Source: Laburnicola sp. R22_1 (lineage: Eukaryota > Ascomycota > Dothideomycetes > Pleosporales > Didymosphaeriaceae). From it: 64,000 nt of DNA. Under the pieces are notes generated by a model. The model worked only from the letters and a program-made list of their open reading frames with translations. It did no database searches and was not told where the DNA came from. The position numbers were made by a program, and so were the translations under genes. Each line of letters opens with the position of its first letter. The stretch's first letter is position 1. This document shows positions 20,161 through 58,173 of the stretch, one piece after another. The stretch covers positions 1 through 64,000 of the forward strand of contig JACONQ010000026.1 in the NCBI GenBank assembly GCA_014281115.1. Reading direction: 5' to 3'.

Positions 20161-21570
20161 GTACTGGTAATCCATTATCTAAGGGAGAAAGCTCCCAACC
20201 ACATAATCCAGAAGCCGAACAACTTATAGAAAATCCCCGTAAAAGATCCGCAAGTACAGAACCAGAGCGTATGATGTCTAAAAGAAATAAAGGTGAAGAC
20301 GAATTTGAAACATTTAAAGAGACTAAGCCAAGTCTGCTATTTGAGGATACTAAGCTAAAGTCAAGTACCACTCCAGTACGTAGTTGACCAGATTATAGTC
20401 GAGGATTTAATGAAGGTGTAGAAAGAACCAAATTATATGATATGGATGCACATTTAGCTATGAGTACTGAAAGAACAAATCATAAAAATCTCGATACTTG
20501 AACTGATCAAATGCAAACGCTATATAGGAGATTCGCTGGTCAAAGAGTTGGTAATAACATTCCAGGTGAAACTCGTTTCTACAATAGTATTGATCTTGTT
20601 CTGTTCAATCATGATACATATTTTGACAAGGCATCTCAAGTACCGGGTCCAGGATACCAGGGTCCAGCAGGTGGTCCAGTCAAACCTGGAGAGGATGCAT
20701 GAGATTCTCAATCCTATCCTGGATATGATAATCCTGGATACACAAATGAACATACTAATCCAGCAAACTATAGTACAGGATACACAAATGAACATACTAA
20801 TCCAGCAAACTATAGTACAGGATACACAGGTGAACATACTAATCCAGCATACTATACAGGATACACAAATGAACATACTAATCCAGCAAACTATAGTACA
20901 GGATACACAGGTGAACATACTAATCCAGCATACTATACAGGATACACAAATGAACATACTAATCCAGCAAACTATAGTACAGGATACACAAATGAACATA
21001 CTAATCCAGCAAACTATACAGGATACACAGGTGGAAACATTGGTGGAAACAATCGTCCAAAAAGCCCTATATTAGAGAGTTTAGCACAAAACAAACCCGG
21101 AGGATACACTGGTGGAAGAAACACTGGTGGAAACAATAACGTAGGAAACACTGGTGGAGGAGACAATAGCCGAGGGAGTAGTGGTGGATGATACATTAAT
21201 AATATACTTCCTTTATTATCTATTGATCTATTAACTAAATTTGTCTGTATTATTATAGACTTTTTTGCACCTTTTATTATACCTCTAGCTCTATATAGTA
21301 TACATATTGGTCTAATACAGATACCAGAGCAAATTGTTATGCTATGAGATCTAATACAAAGTATGTTACCACCATTTGTGGTATTTATGATTAAAGCTGT
21401 GGGGTGTGTTGTTATGATTCTAGCTCAGATGTTACTTATGATACGTAGAGCTAGTAAACCATCAATAGTTTTTGATAAACTAATAGATGCTTTTTGTAAG
21501 AATCCTATGGACTATTCAGCCTATATATCTATATTTTTAGTTTCTTTAACTATAGTTTGATGTGTTGCTT
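20161..21570 (+). CDS. In-frame linker joining Cox1 to Cox2
   Basis: I read every codon from 20700 to 21363 and found no TAA or TAG; both sides are in the same frame. Order: a charged disordered region (~180 residues, with NPRKRSASTEPERMMSKRN), a Tyr/Thr/Asn/Pro repeat (GYTNEHTNPANYS type, seven copies), a Gly/Asn stretch (GGNIGGNNRPK, NNNVGNTGGG), then hydrophobic segments (FVCIIIDFFAPFIIPLALYS and VVFMIKAVGCVVMILAQMLL) and ASKPSIVFDKLIDAFCKNP before Cox2. It has the same plan as the extensions on other genes. Function unknown. It could be a protease-sensitive spacer, a neutral insertion, or a captured module. Confidence 0.75.
20737..21028 (+). repeat. 39/42-bp tandem repeat in the Cox1-Cox2 linker
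   Basis: Seven units encode GYT(N/G)EHTNPA(N/Y)Y with or without ST, so unit lengths are 39 or 42 bp. Both are multiples of three, so expansions and contractions keep cox2 in frame with cox1, which suggests selection on the frame. Confidence 0.9.
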
Positions 21571-22328
21571 GATGTGGTGTATCTTATTACACTGATTATT
21601 TTGTATATTGTGATGCACCTAGAGCTTGAGGACTTTATTTCCAAGATAGCGCTAGCCCACAAATGGAAGCGCTAGTAGAACTACATGACAATATTATGTA
21701 TTACCTAGTTGCTATTTTATTTGTTGTTGGTTGAATACAAGGAGCTATTATTAGAAATTTTGATAGTTCTAGATCTCCTATTAGTAATAAATATCTTAAC
21801 CATGGTACACTAATCGAACTTATTTGAACTATAACTCCAGCATTAATCCTAGTATTAATCGCTTTCCCTTCTTTCAAACTATTATATTTAATGGACGAGG
21901 TTACCGATCCTTCATTATCTGTATTAGCAGAGGGTCACCAATGATATTGAAGCTACGAATATCCTGATTTCTTAAATAGTGAAGGGGATTTTGTAGAGTT
22001 TGATTCATACCTAGTGCCAGAATCAGACTTAGAAGAAGGAAGTTTAAGAATGTTAGAAGTAGATAACAGAGTAATTCTTCCAGAAATTACACACACTAGA
22101 TTTATTCTTACTGCTGCAGATGTTATCCACTCATTTGCTATTCCAGCATTAGGAGTAAAATGTGATGCATACCCAGGTAGATTAAATCAATTCTCTGTTT
22201 TAATTAACAGATTAGGTACATTCTATGGTCAATGTTCAGAAATTTGTGGTATATTACACAGTTCTATGCCTATTGTCGTAGAATCAGTACCTTTAGTGAA
22301 TTTTTTGTCATGATTACAGGAACAATAA
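21571..22328 (+). CDS. cox2: Cytochrome c oxidase subunit 2, C-terminal half of the cox1-cox2 fusion
   Basis: CuA subunit of complex IV. Recognisable from about APRAWGLYFQDSASPQMEAL (~21630) onward, with the two-helix hairpin, the aromatic EGHQWYWSYEYPDF region, and the CuA site CSEICGILHSSM near the end. It closes SVPLVNFLSWLQEQ at TAA 22326-22328, the normal Cox2 end. No ATG lies at the usual start; the nearest in-frame ATG is in FCKNPMDYSAYI (~21508). It is intronless, and the frame is continuous with cox1. Translation could be as a fusion followed by cleavage (Cox2 N-termini are normally processed), or by internal initiation at that ATG. Confidence 0.95.
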
Positions 22329-55232: not shown

Positions 55233-57365
55233 ATGTTATTATCATCTTTATTATTTATTCCCATAATTGGTGTACTTGCAATATTAGTTAATAAAGATAA
55301 TGGAGTTTCGTTAACGAATATAAAATTAATAGCTTTAACTACCTCTATACTTAATTTATTAATATCTTTAATAATTTTCATATTATTTGACTTTAGTACA
55401 AATCAATTTCAATTTGTACAAGAATACCATGAAATAAGTTATTTTGATTTTTATTTAGGTGTAGATGGTTTATCCATCTATTTTGTATTACTAACTACAA
55501 TAATAATTCCTATATCTTTATTATCTAATTGAACATCGATTTCAAAAGATGTAGAATCATATGTAATAATAATATTATTATTAGAAACTTTATTATTAGC
55601 GGTTTTTTTGGTATTAGACATATTGCTTTTCTACATATTCTTTGAAAGTATATTACCACCTTTATTCATTTTAATAGGTATATTTGGATCAGATAATAGA
55701 GTAAAAGCGAGTTTTTATTTATTTTTATATACATTGTTAGGTTCTCTATTTTTATTGTTATCTATACTGGCTATGTCATCTATTATGAGTACTACAGATT
55801 TTGATACCCTTTTCAAAGGAAATTTCATCTATTTAACACAACTTTTTTTATTTTATGGGATATTTATAGCTTTTGCTGTAAAAACCCCTACAATCTTTTT
55901 AAACACTTGACTTTTAAAAGCTCATGTTGAATCACCTTTAGGGGGAAGTATAATTTTAGCTGCTATTGTTCTTAAATTAAGTCTATATGGTATATTAAGA
56001 TTAATCTTACCTGTATTACCTAAGGCTTATATGGAATATACCTATATAATTTATTTAATAGGTGTTATTACCATAGTATATGCTAGTCTTAGTACTTTAA
56101 GAACAATAGATGTTAAAGAACTGATAGCTTATAGCTCAGTTTCTCATGCAGCAGTTTATCTTTTAGGTGTATTCAGTAACAGTGTACAGGGAATTGAAGG
56201 AGGGATTAATTTAGGATTAGCACATGGACTTGTTTCACCTGGTCTATTTATTAGTGCAGGTGGTATATTATATGATAGATCACATACTAGATTAATAGCT
56301 TTCTATAGAGGAATGGCTCAAATTATGCCATTATTTGCCATATTCTTCTTCATATTATGTCTTGCAAACTGTGGTGCTCCGCTATCTTTAAATTTCATAG
56401 GAGAATTTTTATCCCTATATGGGGTGTTTGAAAGATCATCCTTGTTTGGTGTATTTGCTAGTTCTTCTATAGTATTTTCTGCAGCATATACTATATATAT
56501 GTACCAGAAAATATCATTTGGAGGATCATATTCAAGGATGTTTACAATTAATATACCAGACTTAAATAAAAGAGAATTTATAGTATTATTAACTTTAGTA
56601 GTACCTACAGTTCTTTTTGGTGTATATCCTGCACCTATATTGGATGGTATACATTACTCCGTTAGTACATTAATTTATTGTTTTGATAATACTCTTTATA
56701 AGGATGTTTTATCTGTTGCTACACTTGTACCTTTATATATGTCTAATAAGAATGATCATGATACTGGTAATTTCAAGTATAGTATGTTATATCTACCCAG
56801 TATTCCCAAAACTAATCAATTAAATGGTATTTACCTAAGATCTGGATTTAGTTTCAATATATTTAAAATTTCAAGGTCGTATTTTTTTAATCAAATCATC
56901 AATCTTATTTCTAAAAGTATGGTTAGTGTATTAAGCAAAAAAATTCTACATATGTGGAGTAGATATCCTTTAATTTTTTACTATGTAAATAAACTACATC
57001 ATAAGTTTGAAAAGTTTACTTATATATTTACAAATTTAGTTTATTATGTCTTTGTATATTGAAACAAATATCATGCGTTTAGTTTTAATATTCTTTTATA
57101 TTTATATACTGAATATACTAAAATAATTGCAGGTTATTTAGAGACTAGACATTTTAACTTCTTTATTTTCTTAGGTTTCTTGTTGAATAACGAAGATTAT
57201 TTTTACTGATTTTTTACAATGCTTATAGTGAAATTTTCAAAGGATTGTATAATAAGCAGTAAAGTTTTATTTAACCACCCTTTGCTACAATATATAGTAC
57301 TTTCCTTTCTTACTGCTTTTTACCTTCTATCTTTATATAGTTGTATAGACATTATGGAGGGTTAG
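55233..57365 (+). CDS. nad4: NADH dehydrogenase subunit 4 with C-terminal extension
   Basis: Complex I proton-pump subunit, intronless. Conserved: FYLGVDGLSIYFVLLTTIII, WLLKAHVESPLGGSIILAAI, LKLSLYGILRLILPVLPKAY, SSVSHAAVYLLGVFSNSVQG, NFIGEFLSLYGVF. The usual end is near PAPILDGIHYSVSTLIYCF (~56690). The frame continues ~220 residues (LYMSNKNDHDTGNFKYSMLY, then aromatic hydrophobic segments such as IVLSFLTAFYLLSLYS) to TAG 57363. ATG 55233 gives MLLSSLLFIPIIGVLAILVN. The extension appears to continue in another frame from ~57341. Confidence 0.95.
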
Positions 57366-58173
57366 TAATACCTTTAGTTAATAAGGTTTTTAGTATTATA
57401 AAAATAATTAAGACTATTATACTAAGAATGGAGGGGGTTTCTGGCGAAAGTAGCACCAACAATGCAAATTCTGCGCCAAATTCTACCCCAAATCCTAATA
57501 ATGGTCCAAATCCTAATAGTGGTCCAGATCCTACATCTAACAGTGATATTAAACCTAGTAGTAAGAAGAAAAAAAAAGTTCCAGGCAAGAATTTAAGGAA
57601 AAACATAATCTTGATGAAGAACAATCGCGTGATTTTGATTTGGGTATGGAAATGGCTAGAGTAAGTAAGGCATGTGATACATTAAATAAATTGGGGGGTG
57701 ACCACTCTAAAAATAAAAAAGAGTTTGTATATTACACTGAGTTTATGAAAAAGTATCAGAAGTGGTTACCTACAGAAAGTAAAGCCCAATTAAAGGCTAA
57801 TGAGGAGTCTTTCAAAAAAAGAGGGCTAATACAATCTTCCGGTTATGATTCTGCAGCTAATGTGAGAGCATATTGATCATACGTTCAGGTTGATTCTAGA
57901 GAGATATATAAGCAATTTACTAAAACCTTTGAAATTTTTGAAAAAAAGGCTAAAAAAATTAAAAATGATAGCTTAGGTGGTGTTGATAGCGATCTAAGTC
58001 TAAAGTTTAAACAAGAATTTAATGAGTTAAAGACTATATATGCAGAGAACCATAAGGCTAAAGACAGCTTTATTAAAGACCAGATTAAAAAAGCAGATAA
58101 ATTGGACGATATGCTAAAAAAAAAACGTATACCTATTACAGAATTGTTTGATAAAAATGTTCTTATAAAATAA
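57341..58173 (+). CDS. nad4 extension, disordered and coiled-coil part (two frames)
   Basis: Frame one: GLVIPLVNKVFSIIKIIKTI (membrane-like), EGVSGESSTNNANSAPNSTP, then the NPNNGPNPNSGP repeat also found after rps3, then a Lys run. At A9 57569-57577 the next frame becomes sensible: EFKEKHNLDEEQSRDFDLG, MEMARVSKACDTLNKLGGDH and a long Lys-rich helical region (EIYKQFTKTFEIFEKKAKKI...KADKLDDMLKKKRIPITELF) to TAA 58171. About 275 residues if joined. Unknown function. Confidence 0.5.

Follow-up and report, generated by a model that had tools for sequence, protein, structure and literature searches.

The window studied here comprises positions 1–64000 of contig C19 of Laburnicola sp. R22_1 (76,659 bp; one of 26 contigs of a 64-Mb genome). 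The contig is fungal (Pleosporales-like) mitochondrial DNA, and the window covers most of its 76.7 kb. Four core genes of the window, rps3, nad3, nad4, and nad5, run in frame past their normal ends, and an in-frame insert joins cox1 to cox2. Judged from their sequences, these additions are fairly probably movable passenger modules, which recombination has likely spread and which would depend for translation on the host gene or on a copied host leader. The support consists of the joins in frame, rps3 tails homologous to the nad3 and nad4 modules, a nad3 protein that mixes parts of two modules, relatives free of the inserts, copied leaders, and pieces of host genes. In other fungi, relatives of some of these tails sit on another host gene or are absent at the same place, which makes movement from gene to gene likely. 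The core genes, modules, leaders, and gene fragments described below are all on the forward strand.

The rps3 core (22833..24193; VAR1 family, 4e-11) ends with FGLKGWVSSH at 24193. The same open reading frame (ORF) continues for 187 further codons (24194..24757), which encode a membrane span, a Cys-rich domain, and NPNNGP repeats. The core has two frame breaks in the contig; rps3 of the related sequence L001 is continuous there. The nad3 core (27190..27543; Oxidored_q4, 2.7e-26) is followed by a module at 27544..29869, in which several membrane spans precede a soluble part that contains a unit of ~87 codons in three copies (29148–29808; SIxxKISNLIxxGEV...). The first 108 codons beyond the nad3 core are in frame, and the remainder (27728–29869) is in other frames in the contig. 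The nad4 module (56699..58173) has membrane spans, an NPNNGP linker, and a helical soluble end; it is in frame from ~56699 to 57362 and then continues across two frame breaks to 58173. The nad5 module (37883..38514), which combines one or more membrane spans with a soluble end, is in frame over ~37883–38511, unbroken, and continuous with the nad5 exon. The cox1–cox2 insert (20160..21608) contributes 483 aa to a single 816-codon ORF (19878–22328); the earlier note on this DNA had mentioned a cox1–cox2 linker.

That note also listed cob among the extended genes. In the window, a TAA (53042..53044) separates cob from the supposed extension (53045–53365, 106 codons), and in L031 and in the relative G001 cob stops near this position too. 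The stretch is a weak run, with a probability of staying open of 4e-4 in one frame. The cob stretch is therefore not confirmed as an in-frame addition. A stop between core gene and extension, which the note had named as a refutation, is found for cob only; the interruptions in nad3, nad4, and the stand-alone ORF45115 are frame breaks rather than stops at the join.

We calculate the probability that a stretch stays open from the local base composition under genetic code 4. It is below 1e-5 in 7 of 12 stretches, these seven being 194 to 487 codons long; for rps3 and ORF5156 the start used was out of frame, to no effect on the value. The values are ~1e-6 to 1e-12 for nad4, nad5, two nad3 segments, and the cox1–cox2 insert, ~3e-5 for the rps3 tail and the second nad3 segment, and 3e-3 for the first nad3 segment.

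A common order of membrane helix, disordered or repetitive stretch, and soluble end had been proposed for all additions. This order holds for rps3, nad4, the stand-alone ORF635, and module R. It does not hold for nad5, in which spans are present but no disordered or repetitive stretch is seen, for the cox1–cox2 insert, in which repeats come first and membrane spans last, or for the cob stretch, in which hydropathy finds no membrane span. Hydropathy predicts spans in ORF635, the start of ORF45115, rps3, nad3, nad4, nad5, R, and the cox1–cox2 insert. In accordance with the statement that the soluble ends differ, an all-against-all comparison of 19 segments finds likeness solely among the nad3 segments, between the two copies of R, and, weakly, in the repetitive linkers (R–nad4, E 0.007; nad4–rps3, E 0.001). 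The rps3 and nad4 tails do share an NPNNGP repeat (46 nt, 98%). In addition, a short element (86–88% identical) lies before rps3 (22610–22713), after the nad5 module (38971–39039), and after the nad4 module (58420–58522); it may be the relic of a 3′ flank or a site of recombination. Comparisons with Pfam, NCBIfam, and PDB suggest no function for the modules.

To place the tails among relatives, we examine 120 of 429 matched rps3 proteins, with tails cut at the WVSSH motif. At this motif, where the window tail starts, 101 of the 120 stop; 10 have a short tail and nine a long tail beyond it. The long tails include homologues of modules that ride other genes in the window. The rps3 tail of P0036 is homologous to the window nad3 module (E 1e-53 and 5.8e-15), and those of P0042 and P0123 are homologous to the window nad4 module (E 1.1e-7 to 8.2e-5). 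Homologues of the window rps3 module are found in the rps3 tails of P0054, P0116, P0119, and P0126, and the Cys-rich domain on rps3 is common to five sequences. The frames of the homologues stay open over 398 to 848 codons, and P0036 is in a single frame. The rps3 tails of P0111 and P0017 contain a cox1 C-terminus (none of 500 shuffles reaches either score), which is likely a scar of an earlier host.

Eleven long rps3 tails, two of them from L001, fall into seven groups without detected mutual similarity. On the rps3 tree, the long tails need at least eight changes, and a single clade for the 11 long-tailed rows (nine proteins, the window, and L001) is rejected (p 5.9e-5). The five rows that group with the window rps3 are tailless.

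The stand-alone modules also have relatives on other hosts. ORF635 is matched by eight proteins (P0001–P0008), including P0002 from Exserohilum turcicum. In P0003, the module is joined to an ORF with a precomputed match to PF00961, a LAGLIDADG family. P0008 is a nad3 protein (precomputed PF00507) that carries an ORF45115-like anchor (3.3e-8) followed by the soluble end of ORF635 (2.9e-28), indicating that anchors and soluble ends are swapped independently, below the level of the module.

Relatives without the insert exist for nad4, nad5, and cox1–cox2. The nad4 match of L001 ends at its stop codon where the window nad4 module begins, nad5 of the more distant relative L032 stops where the window nad5 module begins, and in L019 cox1 and cox2 are joined by 23 aa at the site of the 483-aa insert. 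Where the window rps3 tail starts, rps3 of L001 bears a long tail of another kind, and a second rps3 3′ end elsewhere in that contig carries a third. In L001, a copy of the 5′ end of nad4 also precedes an ORF635 homologue, after which pieces of a nad4 end (by inspection) and of a cox2 start lie in a different frame. A further chimeric ORF of L001 (13647–14885) strings together a nad4-like end, the start of cox2, and a novel soluble end. The claim that the additions are movable rather than ancestral tails is supported for the nad3 and nad4 tails and for the ORF635 and ORF45115 families, all of which occur on other hosts, and not for nad5, cox1–cox2, and cob, for which no outside homologue is found.

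Stand-alone modules in the window lie behind copied leaders. ORF635 (635..1354), with two membrane spans, an Asn/Gly linker, and a soluble end (PDIKPNGKY...), is preceded by a copy of the nad1 leader at 461..634 (478–640 is 95% identical to 39481–39643, upstream of the nad1 ATG) and followed by a 55-nt nad1 coding remnant (1375..1429), 91% identical to 45695–45751 in a partial nad1 copy. A 123-nt inverted copy of its anchor (41637–41758, 98%) is present in the nad1 intron region. ORF45115 (45115..45655), which has one frame break and whose anchor and NPAGG junction match P0008, has a second copy of the same leader upstream (44939..45114; 44951–45117 is 97% identical to 39473–39640). It is followed by a copy of the 3′ part of nad1 (45680..46292; 92% to 44307–44893). 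Sequence comparison identifies 39481..39643 as the source copy of this leader. Both ORFs start with an ATG, at the positions given in the earlier note (635 and 45115). At 5120..5836, a copy of the nad2 leader and the first 46 nad2 codons are fused to a further module (ORF 5156–5836; 4898–5386 is 94% identical to 25053–25539).

Block R, whose module the earlier note had called shared, is a duplication of ~1.5 kb (31233–32730 and 53600–55079, 94.6% identical). In the first copy, a nad2 leader copy and two nad2 fragments precede module R (30542..31637; Proton_antipo_M in a fragment, 1.9e-10). In the second, a 109-nt cob fragment (99% to 52674–52782) is in frame with module R (53504..54000; the R part matches 31239–31659). 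A partial nad5 copy directly follows the nad5 module (38511..38853; 97% to 37360–37702). Sequence comparison therefore agrees with the earlier statement that partial host-gene duplicates adjoin the modules. Shorter pieces are found at the nad4 module: a nad6 leader/start piece inside it (56733..56792; 85% to 62574–62633, E 2e-11) and a cox2 3′ end after it (58192..58251; 78% to 22271–22330, E 1.4e-7). Both are likely scars of former hosts, as read from these matches.

The host copies that flank the modules are alike (nad5, 97.1%; cob, 99.1%; nad1, 98.7% over 390 aligned bases, 92% for the whole nad1 copy). The upstream and downstream copies are 76.5 and 74.9% (nad5), 83.2 and 84.9% (nad1), and 89.9 and 89.0% (cob) identical to a relative. 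Being 97–99% alike over the stretches compared and about equally distant from relatives, they argue against a foreign C-terminus having been imported and for duplication or conversion in the recent past.

A possible mechanism is as follows. The modules would have no expression signals of their own, and mitochondrial translation would depend on gene-specific leaders, so that a module could survive only where recombination has set it behind a duplicated leader or joined it in frame to the end of an essential gene. Spread would occur by recombination, perhaps through circles that hold a module and one host segment; the layout of host segment, module, and host segment, as in nad5, module, and nad5 piece, suggests integration of such a circle by homologous recombination. 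The tails would be anchored in the inner membrane, would probably be clipped off the host subunit, and may behave as selfish or semi-domesticated mitochondrial elements.

Several observations weigh against the reading of the additions as movable modules. All four outside homologues of the window rps3 module also ride rps3, and no outside homologue is found for the nad5, cox1–cox2, R, and cob stretches. Each of two tail types, Cys (p 0.30) and nad4 (p 0.59), is compatible with a single rps3 clade, so one gain followed by loss could account for either. The scars are short: the nad6 and cox2 E-values are reached by 3 of 37 and 6 of 37 reversed control windows, respectively, and by no match in the reversed nad4 region itself. 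The frame breaks in several modules and in the rps3 core could be real decay. The ratio of nonsynonymous to synonymous substitution rates (dN/dS) is 0.57 over 104 codons of the ORF635 anchor, a weak constraint, and ~0.39 over 176 codons of orf14755, where synonymous sites are near saturation; for comparison, it is 0.087 for the nad4 core. The constraint on these two stand-alone ORFs thus appears weak to moderate. Finally, the evidence for the tails is at the level of sequence.

The same dN/dS values below 1, together with open frames preserved across large divergence and the Cys-rich domain shared by five rps3 sequences, would fit tails that serve their hosts, recruited for lineage-specific tasks such as tethering of the mitoribosome to the membrane by rps3, with occasional gene conversion as the source of cross-host likeness. 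We consider this unlikely, as the five rows grouped with the window rps3 carry no tails, one host bears several dissimilar tails, two tail families each occur on two unrelated hosts, and modules occur stand-alone. Another explanation takes up the earlier suggestion of Allomyces/Glomeromycota-type mobile ORFs: a homing endonuclease would have moved host C-termini and then been lost, leaving the tails. The joining of PF00961 to the ORF635 module in P0003 and the host C-terminal duplicates downstream of modules fit such a history, and elements of this type have made in-phase fusions in Glomus according to the account in PMC3630166. However, no endonuclease match is found by Pfam in the module stretches scanned (45233–45652 only for ORF45115) or in the rps3 tails of P0036, P0042, P0123, P0054, P0119, P0111, and P0017; both host copies are about equally near relatives, unlike foreign mobile-ORF C-termini; and two modules ride non-homologous hosts. 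Identity with these mobile ORFs is therefore rejected, the native C-terminus being kept, and descent from decayed ones is very unlikely.

It is very unlikely that the tails are non-translated debris, that is, fragments left by recombination of mitochondrial DNA (mtDNA) whose in-frame continuation is accidental or due to sequence error. In favour of debris, Dothideomycete mitogenomes often hold truncated copies of genes, as far as described in PMC7999263 and PMC5626475, a stop follows cob, and frame breaks interrupt rps3, nad3, nad4, and ORF45115. Against debris stand the seven stretches, 194 to 487 codons long, that are open at a probability below 1e-5, the preserved frames of the homologues, and a nuclear copy of the mtDNA. 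The breaks in the rps3 core and in the nad3, nad4, and ORF45115 stretches fall in or near homopolymers. Contig C24 carries two large nuclear copies (1268328–1273815 and 1275672–1290354; 95–96% identical), of which the second, 14.7 kb, spans mitochondrial positions 26290–41082, nad2 through nad1. It differs at 641 sites, 580 of which are G>A or C>T. Such an excess is a mark of repeat-induced point mutation. There are also 24 indels, 14 of them in one-base runs of at least five (counted by hand) and the others up to 37 bases. This copy reads three nad3 tail segments (27640–28700) in one frame, with stops at mitochondrial Trp/Gln codons, as repeat-induced point mutation would produce. Because it is single-frame there, the two breaks in this part of the nad3 tail are probably homopolymer errors of the contig, and that the contig carries such errors is the simplest reading. 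Yet the comparison cuts both ways: in the nuclear copy, indels interrupt nad3 itself, and the tail break near 29260 is settled by neither the nuclear copy nor P0036. The nad5 gene, its tail, and its partial duplicate are adjacent in the nuclear copy too, independently of the mitochondrial assembly.

The movable modules resemble several described systems in part. The mobile ORFs of Glomus form hybrids with atp6, atp9, cox2, and nad3, in phase and expressed as mRNA, and those of Allomyces with atp6; they insert at the 3′ end of a core gene, possibly in phase, with a copy of the host C-terminus downstream (described in PMC3630166). In-phase inserts are likewise found at rps3, nad3, nad4, nad5, and cox1–cox2. 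As set out in that source, a LAGLIDADG or GIY-YIG endonuclease ORF brings in a foreign C-terminus of the same gene, which replaces the native one (PMC3630166), whereas the window modules give no nuclease match in the stretches scanned and leave the native end in place, and two of their families ride unrelated genes. A joined cox1–cox2 ORF without a stop is reported from Pleosporales, but there cox2 directly follows cox1 in a 2,370-bp ORF (PMC5626475), with no counterpart, in that description, of the 483-aa module; in Bipolaris mitogenomes, cox1–cox2 is said to be ‘resembling a fused gene’ (PMC11167856). Foreign sequence in rps3 is reported from P. nodorum, whose rps3 holds partial cox1 sequence. 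It is perhaps a case of the P0111/P0017-type tail, likened by description, but the passage in PMC5626475 presents it as the footprint of a cox1 insertion, with no link to a module family. A partial nad2 duplicate is reported from Stemphylium (PMC5626475) and truncated gene copies from Mycosphaerellaceae (PMC7999263). The HSP1/HSP2/atp6_2 segment of Shiraia-like fungi has unassigned mitochondrial ORFs with partial similarity to core genes (NAD5, atp6), HSP1 resembling part of NAD5 from other species; it has copied tRNAs, varies between strains, and is transcribed. In the account given, it is read as gene gain and loss tied to hypocrellin yield (PMC11881002), and the likeness to the modules is one of description. 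The P. nodorum, Stemphylium, Mycosphaerellaceae, and Shiraia-like cases may be isolated pieces of the present phenomenon, and our literature search found no account that unites them.

The window modules also recall chimeric ORFs outside fungi. With the nad1 leader before ORF635 and ORF45115, the leader and first codons of nad2 upstream of ORF5156 and R, and their membrane spans, they are built like the chimeric ORFs of plant cytoplasmic male sterility (CMS). These ORFs, and the male-type cox2 extensions of bivalves with doubly uniparental inheritance, combine core-gene leaders or ends with uncharacterised membrane proteins. They differ in that phenotype or sex linkage is established and the lineages are others, and we know of no repertoire among them that hops between hosts. 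A broader proposal is offered as tentative: Pleosporalean mitochondria might harbour recombining selfish membrane-protein modules that lack expression signals of their own, exploit the expression of essential genes by last-codon fusion or stolen leaders, swap anchors and soluble ends, and hop between ribosomal and respiratory hosts, a fungal counterpart of plant CMS genes with the host gene as hostage.

Core mitochondrial genes are usually regarded as closed to new protein domains, though not to introns. In this one genome, in-frame additions number five, and at least two belong to families that elsewhere ride a different host. This opens three questions: in what way large subunits of the inner membrane and of the ribosome tolerate big tails or shed them, whether expression parasites exist in mitochondrial genomes beyond plants, and whether such parasites compete for gene-specific leaders. 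Annotation calls for caution as well, as the annotated lengths of Pleosporales rps3, nad3, nad4, and nad5 and the ‘truncated copies’ may belong to one phenomenon.

The window encodes cox1–3, cob, nad1–6, nad4L, rps3, rns, and numerous intron ORFs (genetic code 4; Pfam and inspection), and atp6 lies beyond it (by inspection). The free-standing rps3 and the neighbouring cox1–cox2 and nad2–nad3 agree with the gene order described for Pleosporales (in the relevant parts of PMC5626475 and PMC6221350). Named homologues come from Exserohilum and Curvularia. The end pieces of the contig (76610–76659 and 1–69) align side by side in G001, so the contig is probably a closed circle. The sole Rfam intron match in the window is at 42121–42351 (nad1) and none is at any module; other introns implied by split genes are likewise missed, so the lack of a match at the modules is weak evidence against introns, which would splice out and restore the frame of the host.

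Further features lie apart from the in-frame additions. A stand-alone ORF pair is present at 14041–15333 and at L001 1759–3646, and its second member, with the dN/dS of ~0.39 given above, is common to both (E 5e-25). A cox1 intron ORF, GIY-YIG-like by eye, contains a 24-nt tandem repeat encoding Asn/Ser/Glu (9808–10047). A 142-bp tandem duplication (62093–62376, 92%) yields trnN and a trnY-like copy. Smaller nuclear pieces of mtDNA, 88–100% identical, are found on C2, C5, C7, C10, C12, C20, C21, C22, and C23.

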